From: a bacterium 42_11
GTDB taxonomy: Bacteria > Synergistota > GBS-1
Reading direction: 5' to 3'
Assembly (NCBI GenBank): GCA_001508835.1
Contig: LGFB01000006.1
Span: 1 to 15,045, forward strand
Length of the DNA: 15,045 bases
In this document: piece by piece, positions 1 to 14,248 of the stretch
Position numbering within the stretch: position 1 is the first letter of the stretch
How the letters are laid out: every line of letters begins with the position of its first letter
The notes under the pieces: generated by a model
Database searches by the model: none
What the model was told of the DNA's origin: nothing
What the model saw: the letters and a program-made list of their open reading frames with translations, nothing else
Made by a program: the position numbers and the translations under genes

Positions 1-1151
1 CCAAGTATTCTACCCGTTTCCTCCTCAGCTACTATCTTTACCGAGATAGAGGAACCACCAGGGTAATAGCCGGCTGTAGTGTGTGACTCTATAAGGGAAG
101 TTTTTATCTTTAATCCTTCAGCCTTCGCCTCCTCGACACTTAACCCCGTTCTCGCTATCTCCATATCCATCACCTTAGCTATAGCGGTTCCCACGACCCC
201 TGGGAAGATTGCGCGCTCACCCGCAATGTTGCTACCCGCAACCCTTCCCTGCTTATTAGCGGTACTGCCAAGAGGAATATAAACCTTTTTACCTGTCACA
301 AGATGCACGGCATCGGCACAATCACCCGCCGCGTAAATCCCCGGAACGGATGTTTCCATGAGATTATTGACATCTATGGAGCCCTTCGGCCCCAATGCTA
401 AGCCGGCTTCCTTAGCCAGCTCCGAATTCGGTCTAACCCCTATGGCGAGAAGGACTATGTCAGCCTCGATCTTTCCTTTATCGGTTATAACCCTCTCTAC
501 CCTTCTTTTTCCCTCGAAACCCAAAACCTTTGTAGATGTTAAAACCTCGACCCTGTTTTCCCTAAGGTAATTCTCCACCTTCTCTGCAATGTCGCCATCC
601 ATGTTAATGAGTATATGAGGCATGAGCTCAACCATGGTAACTCTCATACCCAAAGAAGCAAAGCTCTCTGCCATCTCAACCCCTATATAGCCTGCACCAA
701 CTATGACTGCCTTCCAAGGGTTTTCTCTTCTTATATAATCTATTATTCTATCGCCATCCCTAAGGGTTCTTAAGGTAAAAACTCCATCAAGGTTAACCCC
801 TTCAAAGGGGGGAATAAGGGGGCTTGCACCCGTAGCTATAAGAAGATAATCGTAGCGTATATTTTCCCCGCCTGCCACAACGAACCTTCCATTCACATCT
901 ATCTTCTCTACACGGGTTTTAAGCCTGACATCTATACCCCCTTTTCTAAAAGCCTCAACGTCTCTTGCAACAAGCCTTCTTCTCTCAGAAATTTTTCTGC
1001 TTATCAAGTAAGGTAAACCACAGGCTCCATAGGACAAGTCTTCTTCATCGGTTATCAAAAGAACCTCCAGATCAGGATTGGTTCTCTTCGCCTTAAAGGC
1101 CGCAGAAGGGCCAGCCGCTACACCACCTATAACAACCAGCTTCTCAGGCAT
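1..1151 (-). CDS. FAD-dependent CoA-disulfide reductase / NADH oxidase-like protein (partial)
   Basis: Pyridine-nucleotide disulfide oxidoreductase that would move electrons from NAD(P)H through FAD to a disulfide or oxygen in the cytoplasm. The reading frame is open from ATG at 1151 to the window edge: 383 residues are seen, and members are usually about 440-460, so the end of the dimerisation domain is missing. Visible signs are the N-terminal FAD motif GGVAAGPSAA (residues 9-18), a single redox cysteine in LSYGACGLPYLIS (Cys44), the position used by CoA-disulfide reductases and NADH oxidases, a second nucleotide fold VIVGAGYIGVE, the FAD-contacting AAGDCAD, and YYPGG in the C-terminal domain. 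There is no CxxxxC pair, so it is not a glutathione- or lipoamide-type enzyme. The start overlaps the end of ndk by 8 bp and follows a GGGAGG-type ribosome site, so it is translationally linked to the carAB-ndk unit. The electron acceptor (CoA disulfide, persulfide or oxygen) cannot be told from sequence. Confidence 0.88.
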   Translation of the reverse strand, partial: MPEKLVVIGGVAAGPSAAFKAKRTNPDLEVLLITDEEDLSYGACGLPYLISRKISERRRLVARDVEAFRKGGIDVRLKTRVEKIDVNGRFVVAGGENIRYDYLLIATGASPLIPPFEGVNLDGVFTLRTLRDGDRIIDYIRRENPWKAVIVGAGYIGVEMAESFASLGMRVTMVELMPHILINMDGDIAEKVENYLRENRVEVLTSTKVLGFEGKRRVERVITDKGKIEADIVLLAIGVRPNSELAKEAGLALGPKGSIDVNNLMETSVPGIYAAGDCADAVHLVTGKKVYIPLGSTANKQGRVAGSNIAGERAIFPGVVGTAIAKVMDMEIARTGLSVEEAKAEGLKIKTSLIESHTTAGYYPGGSSISVKIVAEEETGRIL

Positions 1152-1617
1152 GCTTTACTTCCTCCCCTCCCAAAAACCTCTCCTTAAGCTCCATAAACCT
1201 CTTTAGGTCTATATAGCCATATTGAAGCAACCCCGTTAAGCCAACGCTTAACTCGAAGTGCGCCGATGAAGGGCTATCCGAAGCGTGAATGGCATTTTCC
1301 GTTATGCTCCTCCCATACTTAGCCCTTATAGTGCCAGGCTCCGCTTTAGAAGGGTCCGTAGCCCCTATAGCCTTTCTCACCTTCTTTATAACCCCATCGC
1401 CGTATCCTATAAAATGGCTCGTATTTCCGCTGGACATAAAATCCAAAAGCTCCTCATAAAAGCTCTTTCCTCTGTGGACCACATAAAAGCTCTCCCAGAA
1501 CTCCCGCGGGAGAGAAACATGAAGCGCTACCTTCTCTACCTTACAGGGAAGCTCTTCAATTATCCTCTCAGCCCTTTCATCCGCATTGGGCTTTACAACT
1601 ATATAAGTATACTCCAT
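1144..1617 (-). CDS. ndk: Nucleoside diphosphate kinase, divergent
   Basis: Transfers the gamma phosphate of ATP to nucleoside diphosphates through a phosphohistidine, supplying UTP, CTP and dNTPs. The catalytic set is present: Lys9 in VKPN, Tyr45, Arg81, Thr87 in GATDP, Arg98 in PGTIR, Asn108 and the active-site His111 in NAIHASDS, with Glu122 eleven residues later. It departs from typical NDKs in two ways. The segment after VKP is shorter and lacks the usual GVxRGLVG stretch, and the protein ends with about 25 extra residues after the usual final strand, giving 157 residues against about 135-150. The ATG is 22 bp after the carB stop, with AAGGTGAT as ribosome site, and the gene overlaps the flavoprotein downstream. 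Placement behind carAB suits a role in pyrimidine nucleotide supply. All key residues remain, so activity is likely. Confidence 0.93.
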   Translation of the reverse strand: MEYTYIVVKPNADERAERIIEELPCKVEKVALHVSLPREFWESFYVVHRGKSFYEELLDFMSSGNTSHFIGYGDGVIKKVRKAIGATDPSKAEPGTIRAKYGRSITENAIHASDSPSSAHFELSVGLTGLLQYGYIDLKRFMELKERFLGGEEVKHA

Positions 1618-1639: not shown

Positions 1640-4600
1640 TTATACGATTCTGAACCTTCTTTCAAGGTTTTCAAAGCGGAAGGCACGCCGAAGATAGTAC
1701 TCCTGAATAGGCCTTACCTCCAACTCCTCACTCCTTAAGGCTTCTATAGCATCTATCATAGCCTTCGCTCCTGAAACGGTAGTGGCATAAGGGATGCTCA
1801 GGTCCACAGCAAGCCTTCTCGCTTCCGATATCTCCCTACCCGAGCCTATACCTATTATCAAGGAAAATTCTCCTTTCCTTATCTTGGAAGTGCCCTTTAA
1901 CGCCTCACAGGGAATACCGTTACGCTTAAGATGAGAAGCGGTGAACTGGAAAGCTCCAAGGGTAAACCCGAGACTTAAAAGCCTCTGTGCAATGGGTATT
2001 ATCTTTAAAGAGGACTCCTCATCAGCAGCTAAAAGGGCCTTCCCCTCCCTTGGAAGCCTCATGCCCGCCGCAATCTGAGCCTTCGCATAGGCCAAGGGGT
2101 AGCTATAATCTATCCCCATAACTTCACCCGTTGAACGCATCTCGGGACCAAGCTGAGGATCCACACCTGGAAAGCGCGAGAACGGTAAAACCGCTTCCTT
2201 AACAGCCACATGTTCTATCTCCACCTCTTCAGTTATTCCAAGCTCCCTTAGCTTTTTACCTATCATTACCTTGGTAGCTATCTTAGCCCATGGAATCCCG
2301 GTAGCTTTGCTAACAAAGGGAATCGTTCGAGAAGCCCTCGGATTAACTTCAAGAACATATATCTCTCCATCCTTAACGGCATATTGAACATTAATCAAAC
2401 CAACAACGTTAAGCTCCCTTGCCAAAAGCCTTGTCTGACGCTTTATTTCATCCACCATATCCTTTGGTAATGTATGAGGAGGAAGAACACACGCACTATC
2501 CCCAGAGTGAATCCCAGCCTCCTCGATATGCTCCATTACCCCAGCTATAACACATATCTCTCCATCGGCCACAGCATCCACATCTACCTCGGTTGCACCT
2601 TCAAGGAACTTATCTATTAACACGGGAGCCCCCGGGGCCTCTTCAATAGCTCTTTCAAAAAAGCCTTTCATCCTTTCCTCATTATAAACTATCTCCATAG
2701 CCCTGCCACCCAAAACATAGGATGGCCTCACCAAAACGGGGTAACCGATCTCTTCCGCTATCTTTAAGGCCTCCTCAAGATTAAAGGCTATTCCGCTCGG
2801 CGCCTGCTTCAAACCAAGCTTATAGAGGAACTCTCTAAATTCGTCTCTGTTTTCGGCTCTCTCTATCTCAAGGGGGCTCGTCCCTATTATAGGTACCCCA
2901 TTATTGTATAAGGGGAGTGCTAAATTTAATGGTGTCTGCCCACCAAACTGAACTATTACCCCCCAAGGCTTCTCCTCACGAACTATATGAAGAACATCCT
3001 CAAGGGTCAAAGGGTCAAAATAAAGCCTATCAGAGGTATCATAATCAGTGCTCACCGTCTCCGGATTACTGTTAACTATTATGCTTTCTATTCCTTCCTC
3101 TCTTAAGGCAAAGGATGCATGAACACAGCAATAATCAAACTCTATACCCTGACCAATCCTGTTGGGACCGCCACCCAGAATAATTACCTTTTTATTATTG
3201 GAAACCTTTGCCTCATCTTCGATCTCATAGGTAGAGTAGTAATAAGGCGTATAAGCCTCAAATTCAGCAGCGCACGTATCTACAAGCTTATACACGGGGA
3301 AAAGGTTTCTCCTTTCCCTCTCCCTCCTAACCTCTTCCTCGGCTCTACCCCAAAGGCAGGCAAGCTGTCTATCAGAAAAACCGTAAGACTTGGCCTTCTT
3401 AAACAGGTCCTGAGGAATATCGCTTAGCGGGTAGCCCTTAAACCTTTTAAGCTCTTCCTCCAAATCAACTATCTGCTTTATGTTATTCAAAAACCACGGG
3501 TCTATTTTGGTCAGTCTATGAACTTCATCAACGGAAAAACCGCCTTGAAGGGCATATTTAATGTAGAACAATCTCTCAGAATTCGGGCGGGAAAGCTTCT
3601 CCTCTATTTCCTCCCTTGTCAAGGCCTTGGGATCTTTACCATCCGAACCAAGGCCGTATCTTCCTATCTCAAGAGAGCGAACCGCCTTCTGAAGCGCCTC
3701 CTTAAAGGTGCGCCCTATAGCCATAACCTCTCCAACGGAACGCATAGAAGTGCCGAGCTCATCCTTAGCGCCGGGGAACTTCTTAAAATCCCACCTGGGG
3801 ATCTTAACGACACAGTAATCTATCGTCGGCTCAAAGGAAGCATAGGTTTCCCTTGTAATATCGTTCGGTATCTCATCAAGAGTATATCCAACAGCAAGTT
3901 TTGCCGCAATCTTAGCTATTGGAAAGCCTGTGGCTTTAGAGGCTAAAGCGGAACTGCGAGAAACGCGGGGATTCATCTCTATAACCATCATCTCCCCGTT
4001 TTCAGGGTTTAAAGCAAATTGGATGTTGCTTCCCCCTGTCTCAACCCCTATCTCCCTTATCACAGCTATAGCTGCATCCCTCATTTTCTGATATTCCTTA
4101 TCGGTTAAGGTTTGAGCGGGAGCAACCGTGATGCTATCTCCCGTGTGAACCCCCATGGGGTCAAAGTTCTCTATGGAACATATTATCACCACATTATCCT
4201 TCTTATCTCGCATTACCTCGAGCTCGTATTCCTTCCACCCCAAAACAGACTCTTCAAGAAGGACTTCATGAACCATGCTCGCAGAAAGACCCGCCTGCGC
4301 CAAAACCTCAAGGTCTTCCCAACTGTAGGCAACCCCTCCACCTGTCCCTCCTAAAGTGAAGCTGGGTCTTACTATTATTGGAAAGCCTATCTCCTTAGCT
4401 ATCCTCCTCACATCAGCCATGCTTCTCGCTATTCCGCTTTTCGGAACTCTTAAACCTATCCTCTCCATGGCCTTCTTAAAAAGCTCTCTACTTTCTGCCT
4501 TCTTTATCGCCTCAGGAGAAACCCCTATCATTTCAACTCCATATTTTTCAAGCACTCCATTCTCTGCAAGCGCTATAGCGGTGTTTAACGCTGTCTGTCC

Positions 4601-4873
4601 ACCGAGAGTTGGAAGAATAGCATCGGGCCTTTCCTTAGCTATTATCTTTTCAACCACTTCCGGAACTATAGGCTCTATATAGGTTCTATCGGCCATCTCC
4701 GGGTCTGTCATTATTGTGGCGGGATTGCTATTCACGAGAACTACCTCAAAGCCATCTTCCTTCAAAGCCTTGCAAGCCTGACTACCTGAGTAATCAAACT
4801 CGCAGGCCTGTCCTATCACTATTGGGCCCGAACCTATAATCAAGATCCTCTTTATATCAGTCCTCTTAGGCAT
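1640..4873 (-). CDS. carB: Carbamoyl-phosphate synthase large subunit
   Basis: Synthetase subunit of glutamine-dependent carbamoyl-phosphate synthase. It uses ammonia tunnelled from CarA, bicarbonate and two ATP to make the shared precursor of arginine and pyrimidines. It is full length (1077 residues; E. coli has 1073). Two homologous halves are visible, beginning [20 protein letters not shown] and [20 protein letters not shown], each with an ATP-grasp domain ([36 protein letters not shown]), with the oligomerisation domain between them and an MGS-like allosteric domain from about residue 930. That last domain is short and shows GIGSGR where E. coli has NTTSGR. I chose ATG at 4873 ([11 protein letters not shown], the usual family start) with GAAGGA upstream; an in-frame GTG at 4882 would add three residues but lies almost on the carA stop. 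The gene sits 12 bp behind carA and shares its T-box leader. Confidence 0.97.
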
Positions 4874-4885
4874 ATCCTTCACCCC

Positions 4886-6007
4886 TTAACTCATCATATT
4901 TACGAACTCATCAAAGAGATACTTCGAATCGTGAGGACCAGGACTTGACTCGGGATGATATTGAACAGAAAACAGCGGAAGTCGCCTATGTCTCATGCCT
5001 TCAAGAGTTCCATCGTTTAAGTTTATATGAGTTACTTCCATGCCAGACCCTTTAAGAGAATCCATATCTACACAGAAACCATGATTCTGAGATGTTATCT
5101 CAATCCTCCCGTTAGCAAGATTCTTAACGGGGTGATTCGCTCCCCTATGACCGAACTTAAGCTTATAGGTTTTTCCTCCCATAGCAAGCCCGATTATCTG
5201 ATGCCCAAGGCATATCCCAAAGATGGGTATCTTACCTATAAGTTTTTTAACCTCCAGAATGACCCCTTTAATAGCGGCGGGATCACCCGGCCCGTTTGAG
5301 AGAAAAACCCCTGTAGGACTTAAAAAAAAGACCTCCTCAGCGGAGGTCCAAATGGGAACAACTAAAAGCTCGCAACCCCTTGCTTCAAGCTCCCTTAAAA
5401 TGTTGAACTTAACCCCACCGTCATAAACTATGACCTTATAGGGTTTACTATCGTCCCTCCAAGAAAAGCCCTTAAGTCCGTCTAAAAATATCCTTTTACC
5501 GCCATTCCAGAGATATGGCTTCCTTGTAGATATAGGGGTAGCAAGGTCCATCCCCACCATTCCCGGAAAGGCATTAAGACGCTCGAGCAAAGACTTCGGA
5601 TTTAAATCCATCGTTGAAATTATGCCCTTCATTGCACCATAAAGACGGATTCTTCTCGTTAAGGCTCTCGTATCTATACCCTCAATTCCTAAAACGTTCG
5701 CTCTCTTAAGATACTCAGCTAAGCTCATCTTGGACCGCCAATTACTAGGAAAAGGACAATACTCCCTAACTACCAAGCCCTCAACTTGAACCTGCGAAGA
5801 CTCTACATCTTCATCGTTAACACCGTAGTTTCCTATCAATGGATAGGTCATGGTAACTATTTGCCCCTTATAGGATGGATCGGTTAAAATCTCCTGATAC
5901 CCGGTCATGCTGGTATTAAAAACAACCTCACCCACAGCCTCACCCGCACCCGTAAAAGAGCTTCCCTCAAAGGCGGTCCCATCCTCTAAAACCAAGAGAG
6001 CCTTCAT
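4886..6007 (-). CDS. carA: Carbamoyl-phosphate synthase small (glutaminase) subunit
   Basis: Hydrolyses glutamine and passes ammonia to CarB. At 373 residues it matches the family. The N-terminal CPSase small-chain domain runs from residue 1 to about 140 (EDGTAFEGSSFTG, VVFNTSMTGYQEILTDPSY). The class I glutamine amidotransferase domain covers about 190-373 with its triad visible: Cys266 in GICLGHQ, His351 and Glu353 in QYHPESSPGPHD; SNGPGDP at 237-243 is the oxyanion-region motif. The ATG at 6007 follows GGGAGGTG with a short spacing. It is the first gene after the T-box terminator at 6024-6057, so its expression depends directly on antitermination. No odd residues are seen in the active site. 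Confidence 0.97.
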   Translation of the reverse strand: MKALLVLEDGTAFEGSSFTGAGEAVGEVVFNTSMTGYQEILTDPSYKGQIVTMTYPLIGNYGVNDEDVESSQVQVEGLVVREYCPFPSNWRSKMSLAEYLKRANVLGIEGIDTRALTRRIRLYGAMKGIISTMDLNPKSLLERLNAFPGMVGMDLATPISTRKPYLWNGGKRIFLDGLKGFSWRDDSKPYKVIVYDGGVKFNILRELEARGCELLVVPIWTSAEEVFFLSPTGVFLSNGPGDPAAIKGVILEVKKLIGKIPIFGICLGHQIIGLAMGGKTYKLKFGHRGANHPVKNLANGRIEITSQNHGFCVDMDSLKGSGMEVTHINLNDGTLEGMRHRRLPLFSVQYHPESSPGPHDSKYLFDEFVNMMS

Positions 6008-6023
6008 TCCTACACCTCCCCGT

Positions 6024-6057
6024 AAAAAAGCCCCACCCCCTATAAGGGGCGGGGCTT
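6024..6057 (-). terminator. T-box-controlled intrinsic terminator upstream of carA
   Basis: On the minus strand, AAGCCCCGCCCCT pairs with AGGGGGTGGGGCTT around a small loop and is followed by six T. Its 5' arm is the partner of the T-box antiterminator, so uncharged tRNA should relieve termination. It ends 16 bp before the carA start, with the carA ribosome site just after it. Confidence 0.92.
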
Positions 6058-6316
6058 ATCTATCAAGCCTCGCGGTGCCACCCTTCTTGGTAGAAAGGTA
6101 ACCTTTCCCTTCTACCCACTTTAGCGGCCTTTAACGGAGCCATCCGGAGGCTCTACTTGGCTACATTAAGCCTTTCTTCGAGCCTCGGCTCAGGGGCCCG
6201 TTTCAGCTTCGCCTCAACTCCGAGGAGCGCTCTCAGCCCCGTTGGCGCTCCCTCTCTGTCGGCGAGGTGAAGCCTACTTCACCCCTTCACAGCCTTTAGC
6301 CCTATTAAGCTATTCT
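6024..6316 (-). promoter_or_regulatory. T-box riboswitch (tRNA-sensing leader) of carAB
   Basis: Read on the minus strand, this leader has the T-box parts in order. Stem I has AGTA (6275-6278) opposite GAA (6202-6204), AGAGA and CTGAGA motifs in its distal part, and TCGCC/GGCGA and GGCTTC/GAAGCT helices. Stem II follows; then a stem IIA/B-like stretch with CCGGATGG and CCGTTA; then stem III (6089-6117). The core T-box AGGGTGGCACCGCG is at 6071-6084. The antiterminator pairs AAGGG, GCG and GGCTT with AAGCC, CGC and CCCTT, whose strand is also the 5' arm of the terminator, so the two are exclusive. UGGC in the bulge expects a tRNA with discriminator G. In the specifier loop (3' side GAAACGGG) I favour CGG (6198-6200, Arg), which fits G73 and the pathway; AAC (Asn) or ACG (Thr) are other registers. 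That this is a T-box is near certain; the amino acid is not. Confidence 0.93.
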
Positions 6317-6321
6317 GGTAT

Positions 6322-6350
6322 GTTATAATAAAGGAGAAAGTATCTTGCAA
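6322..6350 (-). promoter_or_regulatory. Sigma-A promoter for T-box-carAB transcript
   Basis: TTGCAA (6345-6350), 17 bp spacer, TATAAC (6322-6327) on the minus strand. Transcription would start near 6315, just ahead of T-box stem I, which supports both calls. Confidence 0.75.
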
Positions 6351-6377
6351 GGGGTTTTAGAAAAAAATTTTGGGGCT

Positions 6378-6878
6378 TTAACTTTCATCCCTTTCACAGA
6401 AAAAACCTACCACGAAGCCGGAAAACAGCGAATATATGAATATGAGGAGATTAAAAAGCAAAACGAATTTGTAACCGAGAAAGGCTCCAGCAAGGGGAAT
6501 CGCATGAAGCCTTACAGCCCAAGCACCGATAGTAGTAGCGATTACCCTCATACTCGCACCTTTGTCCACGAGGTCTTTAAACAGAGGATAAAATACGTAG
6601 GCCGGACCAATCATGAGAGCACCAAATAAAGCGCCTATTAAGGTTCCTTTAAATCCGCTTTCTCTTCCTATTATCCTCTTTACAACTTCGGGAGGCAAAA
6701 ACTCCGATATTAGGCCAGAAAGAAAGGCTATCGAGACGATGACGATGAAGAGGTTCGTATACATGTTAACCGCATGGCTTATCCCCAAAACAGCTCTATC
6801 TGAATTTGCGAAGATCAAGATAAGGGCTAAACATGTCACAAAGATCTCCATGGGGTAACTTTTCGCCAATTTGCTCAT
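6378..6878 (-). CDS. Half-size DUF318/ArsP_1-type permease, second of pair
   Basis: Small integral membrane protein of 166 residues with about five hydrophobic segments (roughly 9-26, 42-58, 78-100, 112-132, 136-160). The third carries GTLIGALFGALMIGPAYVFYP, a small-residue GAxxG...P pattern that resembles the core repeat of DUF318/ArsP_1 permeases, which are about twice this size. The CSCG cysteines of arsenical exporters are absent. The ATG overlaps the stop of the partner gene in an ATGA junction and has GGAGG seven bases upstream, so equal co-translation is likely. The same GAL(I/F)GALM(M/I)GP motif occurs in the partner, so the two are paralogous halves and may form a heterodimer. The substrate is unknown; the NifX/PadR neighbours hint at a metal or metalloid. 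No clear terminator follows the stop; the next one is inside the carA T-box. Confidence 0.72.
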   Translation of the reverse strand: MSKLAKSYPMEIFVTCLALILIFANSDRAVLGISHAVNMYTNLFIVIVSIAFLSGLISEFLPPEVVKRIIGRESGFKGTLIGALFGALMIGPAYVFYPLFKDLVDKGASMRVIATTIGAWAVRLHAIPLAGAFLGYKFVLLFNLLIFIYSLFSGFVVGFFCERDES

Positions 6879-7360
6879 AGCAATGCCTCCATTATTAAAC
6901 CTAAAACTATGGCAGAAAAGATTGCAAAGGAATTCCTTACCAAAGCAAATCTTCCTCCCAAAGTCTTTATCTCAAGGGGAAGGGCAACAAGGCCAACCAT
7001 AACCCAAGAAAACAAAAAGGAGGAAACGAGACCCACGGCTCCTCCATTCTCCAAAATATATTTACATATAGGATATCCAGATATAACAGGCCCCATCATA
7101 AGAGCTCCAATGAGCGCACCAATTAATATTCCCTTTATACCCGAAAAGTGCATCAGAAAACCACCAACCAATTCTTTTGAAAGAAAGCTCTGTAAGATAC
7201 CTATAACCACGAAAACAGAAAAAATCCTCACCGAATTTCGAATCAAATTTTTAGCTCCCCTTAAAAGTGCCCTTTTAAAGAGAGCTTTACTTCTAAAGAA
7301 GACGAGGATGTAAAATCCCAAGGTCAGAAGAAAAATAAAACCTCCAAGTCTTAAGCTCAT
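6875..7360 (-). CDS. Half-size DUF318/ArsP_1-type permease, first of pair
   Basis: 161-residue membrane protein, about five hydrophobic segments, with GILIGALIGALMMGPVISGYP in the third matching the partner encoded immediately downstream. A strongly basic loop (RSKALFKRALLRGAKNLIR) after the first segment should be cytoplasmic. I start at ATG 7360, because GGGAGGGAGA lies just upstream; the in-frame ATG at 7396 has no ribosome site and would put charged residues before the first membrane segment. It overlaps the second half-permease by 4 bp. A hairpin terminator (7413-7457) separates it from the DUF5320-like gene, so it depends on readthrough or on a promoter I could not identify between 7361 and 7412. 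The family call rests on the motif pattern, not on a database search. Confidence 0.72.
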   Translation of the reverse strand: MSLRLGGFIFLLTLGFYILVFFRSKALFKRALLRGAKNLIRNSVRIFSVFVVIGILQSFLSKELVGGFLMHFSGIKGILIGALIGALMMGPVISGYPICKYILENGGAVGLVSSFLFSWVMVGLVALPLEIKTLGGRFALVRNSFAIFSAIVLGLIMEALL

Positions 7361-7412
7361 ATTCTCTCCCTCCCAAACAGTGATAGAATCAACCATCTTT
7401 ATTTTCCCATAA

Positions 7413-13099: not shown

Positions 13100-14248
13100 A
13101 TGGCGAAGTTCTTCCCCATTACGGAAAAGGCAACTTTTCTTGAAAGGGTCAATCGCTTCACAATTAAGGTTTTAAACCGCCATGGAAAAGTCCTAAAATC
13201 CTACCTTCCAAACTCTGGAAGTTTGGAGGAACTTTTAATTCCCGGAAGAACCGTTTTGATTACCGAAAGCCCGAAAGGAAAGCTTCCCTACAAAGCGGTT
13301 GGAGTAATCGATGCAAGCGGAAATTTTATAATGATAGACTCTATAAAGGTTAACGAAATTTTACCATCGATAATAGAGAGGATCCCTTCCTTAAAGGGCT
13401 ACCAGATAACCCGAAGAGAGGTAAGATACGAAAATGCAAGGTTTGATTTTTTATTAGGAAAGGGACCTCAAAAGCTTCTTCTTGAAGTTAAGGGTTGCAC
13501 GCTCTTTTGGGAAGATGTAGCTTCCTTTCCCGATGCCCCCACAAAGCGAGGGGTAAAACACCTAAGGCTTCTTTCAAATCTCCCAGAAGACTTAAAAGGA
13601 GGAATCCTATTTATTATCCAAAAACCGGTCAAATACTTTATACCAAACTTTCACACCGACCCAGAGTTCGCAAGCGAGCTTTACAAGGCAAGAGAAAGGT
13701 TGTTAATAGAAGCTATAAGTTTAAAGTGGGACGAAAACTTAAATTTAATCGAAGAATCGGTATCACGCGCACATATCCCATGGGAAAGGATGGAACCCCT
13801 TTTACAAGATAAGGGGGCTTATCTACTGTTATTACTAAACGAAAGTCCAAAAGCGCTACCCTTTTCCAATGGAAGCAAGTCTAAAAGCCCTCTCTTTGAA
13901 AAAGGGTTTTATGTATACGTGGGATCGGGACTGAGAGGCCTATCATCGAGGATAAAAAGACACTTAAGCGATAAAGGAAAACCTTTCTGGCACATCGATA
14001 AAATCAAAAAGGGGATGAAAGTAGTAAAAGTTATACCTATAAGAAACCCTGAGAGGATGGAATGCAAAATAGCGAAGGAGCTCAAAGCTATAGCAGATGG
14101 GATAATCGCCGGTTTCGGTTCAAGCGATTGTGCCTGCGAAAGCCACCTCTTCTACTTTAAAAGGGACCCCAGACAGGTGGAAGGCTTCTTAGGAAGGGTA
14201 TTAAAATTCAGATTCGGATTACTAAGCGAGACTATCCAGAATCCTTAA
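13100..14248 (+). CDS. sfsA: SfsA nuclease fused to a DUF123 (GIY-YIG-like) domain
   Basis: 382-residue two-domain protein. Residues 1 to about 233 are SfsA: ATFLERVNRFTIKV, LPNSGSLEELLIPG, then the nuclease-like core with Asp116 in ARFDFLL and Glu129-x-Lys131 in LLLEVKGCTLF, then FPDAPTKRGVKHLR. SfsA was named for sugar fermentation and is known as a DNA-binding, nuclease-fold protein. Residues about 238-362 are DUF123: KGAYLLLLL, GFYVYVGSGLRGLSSRIKRHL, PFWHIDKI, and FGSSDCACESHLF at the end. DUF123 is related to GIY-YIG nucleases and is also known fused to endonuclease III. SfsA alone is about 230 residues. There is no ribosome site before ATG 13100; TATCAT at 13088-13093 would start transcription at about the ATG, so the mRNA may be leaderless. 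Confidence 0.93.
   Translation: MAKFFPITEKATFLERVNRFTIKVLNRHGKVLKSYLPNSGSLEELLIPGRTVLITESPKGKLPYKAVGVIDASGNFIMIDSIKVNEILPSIIERIPSLKGYQITRREVRYENARFDFLLGKGPQKLLLEVKGCTLFWEDVASFPDAPTKRGVKHLRLLSNLPEDLKGGILFIIQKPVKYFIPNFHTDPEFASELYKARERLLIEAISLKWDENLNLIEESVSRAHIPWERMEPLLQDKGAYLLLLLNESPKALPFSNGSKSKSPLFEKGFYVYVGSGLRGLSSRIKRHLSDKGKPFWHIDKIKKGMKVVKVIPIRNPERMECKIAKELKAIADGIIAGFGSSDCACESHLFYFKRDPRQVEGFLGRVLKFRFGLLSETIQNP

Follow-up and report, generated by a model that had tools for sequence, protein, structure and literature searches.

The arginine-specific carbamoyl-phosphate synthase (CPSase) of Bacillus subtilis is insensitive to UMP. It is encoded within argCJBD-carAB-argF, which is repressed by AhrC (PMC9245794), and the organism has a second CPSase for pyrimidines (PMC6245113). 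In Escherichia coli, one CPSase serves both pathways and UMP, IMP, and ornithine act on the enzyme (PMC6245113), with carAB transcribed from two promoters under transcription factors (PMC8632094). A structured RNA leader has been described for carA of Polynucleobacter (beta-proteobacteria), where the carA motif RNA contains an extended hairpin and its ligand is not known (PMC8632094). Transcriptional T-boxes specific for arginine (Rfam RF00230) are a known RNA type, and the arginine specifiers collected in TBDB are CGG in 8%, CGC in 52%, and AGA in 24% (PMC7778990). The phylum Synergistota is absent from the T-box lineage list of PMC3766115, a survey that did not necessarily examine it, and is described as enriched in riboswitches (PMC12452182). 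The literature searched contained no description of a T-box before carAB; the surveys Vitreschak 2008 and Gutierrez-Preciado 2009 lay outside that search, and an earlier mention is possible. Passages of PMC9245794, PMC10949432, and PMC2700814, papers that mention both terms, describe other T-boxes (Pro, Met, Leu).

Here we analyzed a carAB locus of bacterium 42_11 (Synergistota; GBS-1) in a stretch of 15,045 nucleotides, hereafter the window, which is contig C178 of a genome of 1.41 Mb in 245 contigs that is 77.6% complete (G000). Its family comprises this genome and three relatives, G001 (99% complete), G002 (96%), and G003 (98%). As in B. subtilis, the locus encodes a CPSase predicted to answer to arginine, but neither an ArgR-family protein nor a second CPSase was found here. 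As in E. coli, one CPSase apparently serves both pathways; in contrast to E. coli carAB, one promoter was seen and control would lie in an RNA switch. It is a classical problem how a one-CPSase cell divides its carbamoyl phosphate between the arginine and pyrimidine pathways; E. coli solves it with several proteins and allosteric effectors, and the present locus seemingly with one RNA and a lost nucleotide-binding site. The Polynucleobacter carA motif, compared by description only, is likewise a structured RNA leader on carA. The RNA elements, the arginine specifier, and the exclusive terminator and antiterminator are those of known Arg-specific T-boxes, and what differs is the carAB target, the apparent sole-CPSase setting, and the change in the enzyme. 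The features of the locus are as follows.

6322..6350, minus strand: sigma-70-like promoter TTGCAA-17-TATAAC, the best hexamer pair upstream (9/12)
6042..6299, minus strand: T-box leader RNA (RF00230), by covariance model, 105.9 bits
6188..6290, minus strand: Stem I of the T-box, at alignment columns 10-112 of the RNAalifold consensus for the six family T-boxes
6198..6200, minus strand: specifier codon CGG (Arg), in the Rfam register GAA-A-CGG-G, invariant in six family T-boxes
6077..6080, minus strand: UGGC bulge, predicted to pair with the tRNA 3' end G73-C-C-A
6044..6086, minus strand: antiterminator, folding at -15.2 kcal/mol when the 7-nt T-box bulge is left open
6024..6057, minus strand: intrinsic terminator, folding at -26.4 kcal/mol, with a 13-bp stem and a run of six Us, the last four unpaired
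6013..6021, minus strand: Shine-Dalgarno-like GGGGAGGTG of carA, by sequence reading
4886..6007, minus strand: carA, CPSase small subunit (TIGR01368, 517.8 bits, cut-off 307)
1640..4882, minus strand: carB, CPSase large subunit (NF003671, 1660 bits, cut-off 599)
1790..2002, minus strand: degraded MGS/allosteric domain of CarB (PF02142, 21.4 bits, cut-off 24.1)
1144..1617, minus strand: divergent nucleoside-diphosphate-kinase-like (NDK-like) gene (PF00334, 104.7 bits, over cut-off)
3..1151, minus strand: CoA-disulfide-reductase-like gene (TIGR03385, 380.7 bits, cut-off 578.8), incomplete where it leaves the window

The only Rfam match within the window was the T-box directly upstream of carA (6299-6042, minus strand), which spans the full model (1-219) and exceeds the gathering score of 93 bits (E 5.5e-23); the carA leaders of G001 and G003 match RF00230 as well. 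With the core AAGGGTGGCACCGCG located at 6085-6071 and the UGGC bulge within it, the T-box of the original prediction is confirmed. The RNAalifold consensus of the six family T-boxes has 71 pairs, 15 of them with a change on both sides (counted over six sequences without a shuffle control), and contains both helices that had been proposed to flank the specifier. The antiterminator and terminator share the strand AAGCCCCGCCCCTT and are thus mutually exclusive, as had been claimed, and none of 500 mononucleotide shuffles folded to an energy as low as that of the terminator. The predicted promoter has counterparts at about the same place in the carA leaders of G001 and G003 (TTGATT-17-TATAAT, 10/12), and the best pair in the three family argG leaders reaches 11/12, also with a 17-base spacer, where only the best-scoring hexamer pair per leader was reported. 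From the start of the -35 hexamer to the T-box there are 51 bases in the window, 50 in G003, and 61 in G001. A mechanical scan of positions 5950-6500 under stricter rules returned neither promoters nor terminators, probably because it requires a -10 hexamer ending in T and because the stem occupies two of the six Us. The leader RNA itself is an ordinary T-box; it is the target that is unusual.

Judging from these sequence features, a tRNA-Arg(CCG)-specific transcriptional T-box very probably controls carAB and perhaps the two following genes. Under arginine shortage, the CGG specifier would bind uncharged tRNA-Arg(CCG), whose free GCCA end would pair with the UGGC bulge; this would hold the antiterminator and allow transcription of carAB; with charged tRNA-Arg(CCG), the terminator would form. 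The carbamoyl phosphate made would be joined to ornithine by ornithine carbamoyltransferase (OTCase), and argG-argH, preceded by a T-box of this kind in three relatives, would complete arginine. With nucleotide control of the apparently sole CPSase seemingly lost, both the synthesis and the activity of CarAB would answer to arginine, sensed as tRNA charging, and perhaps to ornithine, rather than to pyrimidines. Arginine control of carAB expression is thus a prediction from the T-box, and the response to tRNA in the cell is presumed on the same grounds. The start of carB was called at GTG, and translation could instead begin at an internal ATG (MPKRTDIK). The NDK-like gene falls under all six NCBIfam NDK cut-offs listed; it and the CoA-disulfide-reductase-like gene follow carB in the identical order in G001 and G003 and are perhaps co-transcribed with carAB.

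Within the family, CarAB is apparently the sole CPSase. One CarA (1e-30) and one CarB (1e-20) were identified in each of G001 and G003, and no second CPSase, such as the pyrimidine enzyme that accompanies the arginine-specific type in two-CPSase species, was found in either genome at these thresholds, below which a diverged copy would escape. Given the incompleteness of the window's own genome, the single-copy statements rest on these two near-complete relatives. Neither CarA nor CarB was found in G002. Two carbamoyltransferases are present in each of G001, G002, and G003 and one in G000; those of G001 are OTCase (TIGR00658) and aspartate carbamoyltransferase (NF002032), the gene of the latter (pyrB) being followed by pyrC, K, D, F, and E in a pyrBCKDFE cluster whose PyrK is under its NCBIfam cut-off (154.4 versus 219). 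The pyr clusters of G002 and G003 were recognized by similar N-termini. The OTCase gene adjoins an ornithine-racemase-like gene (G001, locus L246, 8255-10290, minus strand; also L248, L250, and L252), whose product in G001 scores 406 bits to Orr against a cut-off of 480 and in the other genomes was recognized by similar N-termini.

An ArgR protein repressor was considered as an alternative control and rejected, as no ArgR was found in the four family genomes (9 of 14 control genomes were positive). ArgJ was likewise found in none of the four, with 10 of the 14 controls positive. Within the family, ArcC exceeds its cut-off only in G002; weak matches in G001 (21.2 bits) and G000 (18.9 bits) are far under the cut-off of 358, for a model that matched all 14 controls and only 2 of them over cut-off. 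An arginine-deiminase-like (ADI-like) protein also occurs only in G002, at 463.9 bits and under the cut-off of 489.1, with a weak model that was positive in 3 of the 14 control genomes and over cut-off in 1. This gene content suggests that carbamoyl phosphate seemingly comes from CarAB, presumably as the sole supplier, in three genomes and perhaps from a deiminase route in the fourth, where the ADI-like protein and ArcC may supply it instead. In G002, contig C46 (22278 bases) carries tRNA genes and arcC in mirror positions; this palindromic contig is possibly an assembly artefact.

The T-box on a gene that feeds two pathways had been flagged as surprising, and the surprise is justified by the single CPSase of the near-complete relatives and by a CarB pocket that is mostly lost. 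With a seemingly sole CPSase and an apparently lost pyrimidine site, one arginine signal may govern the building block of both pathways. We therefore put forward, tentatively and as a conjecture that could well prove wrong, that control of the sole CPSase has passed entirely from pyrimidines to arginine, the T-box having apparently been copied from an argG leader, the UMP/IMP pocket having been lost, and the ornithine contact kept. If true, the supply of the pyrimidine precursor would be set by how far the tRNA that reads one of the rarest arginine codons is charged. Alternatively, the T-box is real but CarAB works mainly for pyrimidines: the switch would top up expression in arginine starvation, while basal read-through and an unseen pyrimidine control (a second promoter, mRNA decay, or a new effector of the CarB domain) would set the normal level. 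A single CPSase must indeed feed the pyr cluster too, a carAB operon tightly shut in arginine-rich medium would starve the cell of pyrimidines, and an NDK-like gene follows carB in all three genomes. However, no second Rfam element occurs in the window, and in G001-G003 none reached the gathering score in the stretches scanned around the pyr cluster and argF (only a tmRNA was returned); a second promoter could have escaped notice, as just the best site per leader was reported and the mechanical scan is coarse. We consider the top-up role unlikely, if worth keeping in view. The OTCase gene, being without a T-box or other Rfam leader at gathering score in the stretches scanned, indicates that the arginine branch is not wholly under T-box control. 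The proposed arginine control of carAB is testable on a single operon.

Residues Lys954, Thr974, Asn1015, and Thr1016 of CarB (E. coli numbering) are taken here to line the nucleotide pocket of the C-terminal domain. In E. coli CarB, this pocket is shared by UMP and IMP; Thr977 and Lys993 have been implicated in UMP inhibition and UMP binding, and Thr1042 in contact with ornithine (PMC6245113). The three CarB proteins of the family were compared at these positions with an outside set from other phyla, comprising the 56 of 79 loci (L003-L081) that passed the filter, 2 of them truncated. Lys954 (55/56 outside), Thr974 (54/56), Asn1015 (54/56), and Thr1016 (54/56) are all absent from the three family proteins, as is Lys993, which is found in 46 of the 56 (the other ten have 8 serines and 2 gaps). 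Thr977 persists in one family protein, that of the window, versus 55/56 outside. The ornithine-contact Thr1042 is present in 3/3 family proteins and in 49/56 outside (serine in 5). The domain itself, under the PF02142 cut-off in the window, gave no match at E 1e-3 in CarB of G001 and G003, versus 69.6, 68.9, 57.8, and 45.6 bits in the outside CarB of G061, G029, G041, and G046. The intact MGS nucleotide pocket that marks an E. coli-type UMP-regulated CPSase is thus missing from the family, suggesting that CarB of the three T-box genomes seems to have lost UMP/IMP control and would be insensitive to UMP.

The timing of this loss is informed by G061 (the genome of L003, Candidatus Desulfofervidaceae), the nearest outside relative found, whose CarB is 77% identical. 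Its CarB retains Lys954, Thr974, Thr977, Lys993, and Asn1015 and has lost Thr1016, and no T-box was found before its carA; by this single outgroup, both the pocket loss and the T-box fall in the family lineage. The changed domain could also reflect simple decay with no regulatory meaning. CarB was read from 19 other Synergistota genomes, none with a T-box match near carA; 4 of the 7 that could be counted have serine at Asn1015 and altered RP positions, and the other 12, which had no alignment anchor and were left out of the column count, have no EGRP segment either, so that erosion is not peculiar to T-box genomes. Against decay speak a domain that is still translated and keeps its ornithine-contact threonine in 3/3 genomes, and the five residues and higher PF02142 score kept by G061; on balance we find mere decay a doubtful explanation. 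A different modification was observed at L294-L297 (G041, G046, G045, and G053), where the CarB ORFs are 1348-1364 aa long; in the two tested, G041 and G046, a diaminopimelate-epimerase domain (PF01678, 135 and 116 bits) forms the C-terminal part, resembling a CarB-DapF fusion.

The arginine specificity of the leader was assessed through the register of the specifier strand GAAACGGG (6204-6197). The RF00230 alignment sets the register as GAA-A-CGG-G, and CGG occupies it in all six T-box matches of the family, that is, in 3/3 carA leaders (G000, G001, and G003) and in 3/3 argG leaders found (G001, G002, and G003). To calibrate the register, 73 T-boxes were read out of 133 matches in the phylum, with gene names assigned by short motifs chosen by the analyst; 31 of the 73 gave no specifier with the pattern used. 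The 19 argG leaders gave 10 AGA and 3 CGG with 6 unread (Arg in 13/19), the 13 thrC leaders gave ACC (Thr) in 11 with 2 unread, and all 8 thrS-like leaders gave ACC. Gene and codon agreed wherever both were readable in these three groups, and no other codons appeared there. T-boxes at genes that the motifs left unassigned gave 3 ACC, 2 AGA, 1 AGG, and 1 TAC, with 23 unread, and the 3 carA leaders, all CGG, complete the 73. The argG T-boxes of the phylum share the architecture of the carA leader, with AGA as specifier in every readable leader outside the family and CGG within it. At dapA-, lysA-, or asd-like genes (named by eye; L147, L150, L153, L216, L219, L231-L234, and others), the GAA-N-NNN pattern yields no specifier and the specifier loops look different.

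The tRNA complement is consistent with this reading. ARAGORN identified in the window's genome a tRNA-Arg(CCG) that is complementary to the CGG specifier and whose G73-CCA end is complementary to the UGGC bulge; G73 is present on the tRNA-Arg(CCG) of G001, G002, and G003 as well. The proposed tRNA-Arg specificity thus finds support in the Rfam register, in the carA and argG leaders of the family, and in the discriminator. Among the 45 tRNAs of G001 there are Arg anticodons ACG, CCG, CCU, and UCU, all with G73, and no tRNA-Arg(UCG), which leaves a single reader for CGG in that genome. In G002, tRNA-Arg(UCU) has A73 and tRNA-Arg(CCG) has G73, which favors CCG for a T-box whose bulge is UGGC. CGG is infrequent among Arg codons, at 4% of 207 in the window, 2% of 1095 in the G001 loci, and 3% of 1252 in the G003 loci (mechanically chosen ORFs >250 aa), with CGA rarer still in the window (3%). 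In TBDB, the preferred specifier is mostly the least preferred codon (PMC7778990).

Two other codons had been weighed for the specifier. ACG (Thr), already disfavored in the original prediction, is rejected on the register, on the homologous argG leaders, and on U73 in all three tRNA-Thr of G001 and in the window genome's own tRNA-Thr(CGU). AAC, which had been left open, lies two bases 5' of CGG, overlapping it, and would make tRNA-Asn the ligand and tie carAB to asparagine status. The tRNA-Asn(GUU) of G001 does carry G73 and fits the UGGC bulge, so the discriminator alone cannot exclude asparagine, and the conserved purine 3' of the specifier (PMC7583486) fits CGG-G and would fit AAC-G as well. 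AAC is, however, out of register in the Rfam alignment, the same specifier sequence precedes argG, an arginine gene, in 3/3 family leaders found, and the corresponding position outside the family reads AGA in 10/10 readable argG leaders (6 without a reading); the register and the argG leaders speak against asparagine, and AAC is very improbable as the specifier.

We also examined how far the carA T-box has spread and where it came from. In the 61 genomes searched, 27 hold carA, and the 24 of these other than G000, G001, and G003 gave no T-box match near it under filters that lose weak matches. In a wider collection, a T-box core lies within 600 bases of 1 of 80 carA loci (3 of them with <300 bases upstream), and this one (L002) is the same DNA as the G003 locus; a wider spread of the association was therefore rejected. 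The six family T-boxes form one clade (support 97/98), and the move from AGA to CGG may thus have occurred once. The carA and argG T-boxes of G003 are 86% identical and group together in the tree (support 87/85, below the starred level). The tree has two changes for the carA copies and 14% of the bootstrap trees have one; carA may have gained its T-box once or more than once. The plain relationship to the argG leaders could suggest that the carA T-box is a decayed, non-functional copy, which is scarcely credible given the intact specifier, core, and terminator in 3/3 carA leaders and the 15 of 71 pairs changed on both sides. For study, the family offers a bridge enzyme under an Arg T-box and a specifier that seems to have changed naturally from AGA to CGG.

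Two further observations concern other genes of the window. On the minus strand at 6378-7396, a pair of short ArsP_1-like permease genes (166 and 173 aa) overlap each other and look like two halves of one permease, the second being under the Pfam cut-off. On the plus strand, the gene at 13100-14248 encodes a single protein that fuses SfsA (PF17746 and PF03749) with DUF123 (PF01986).
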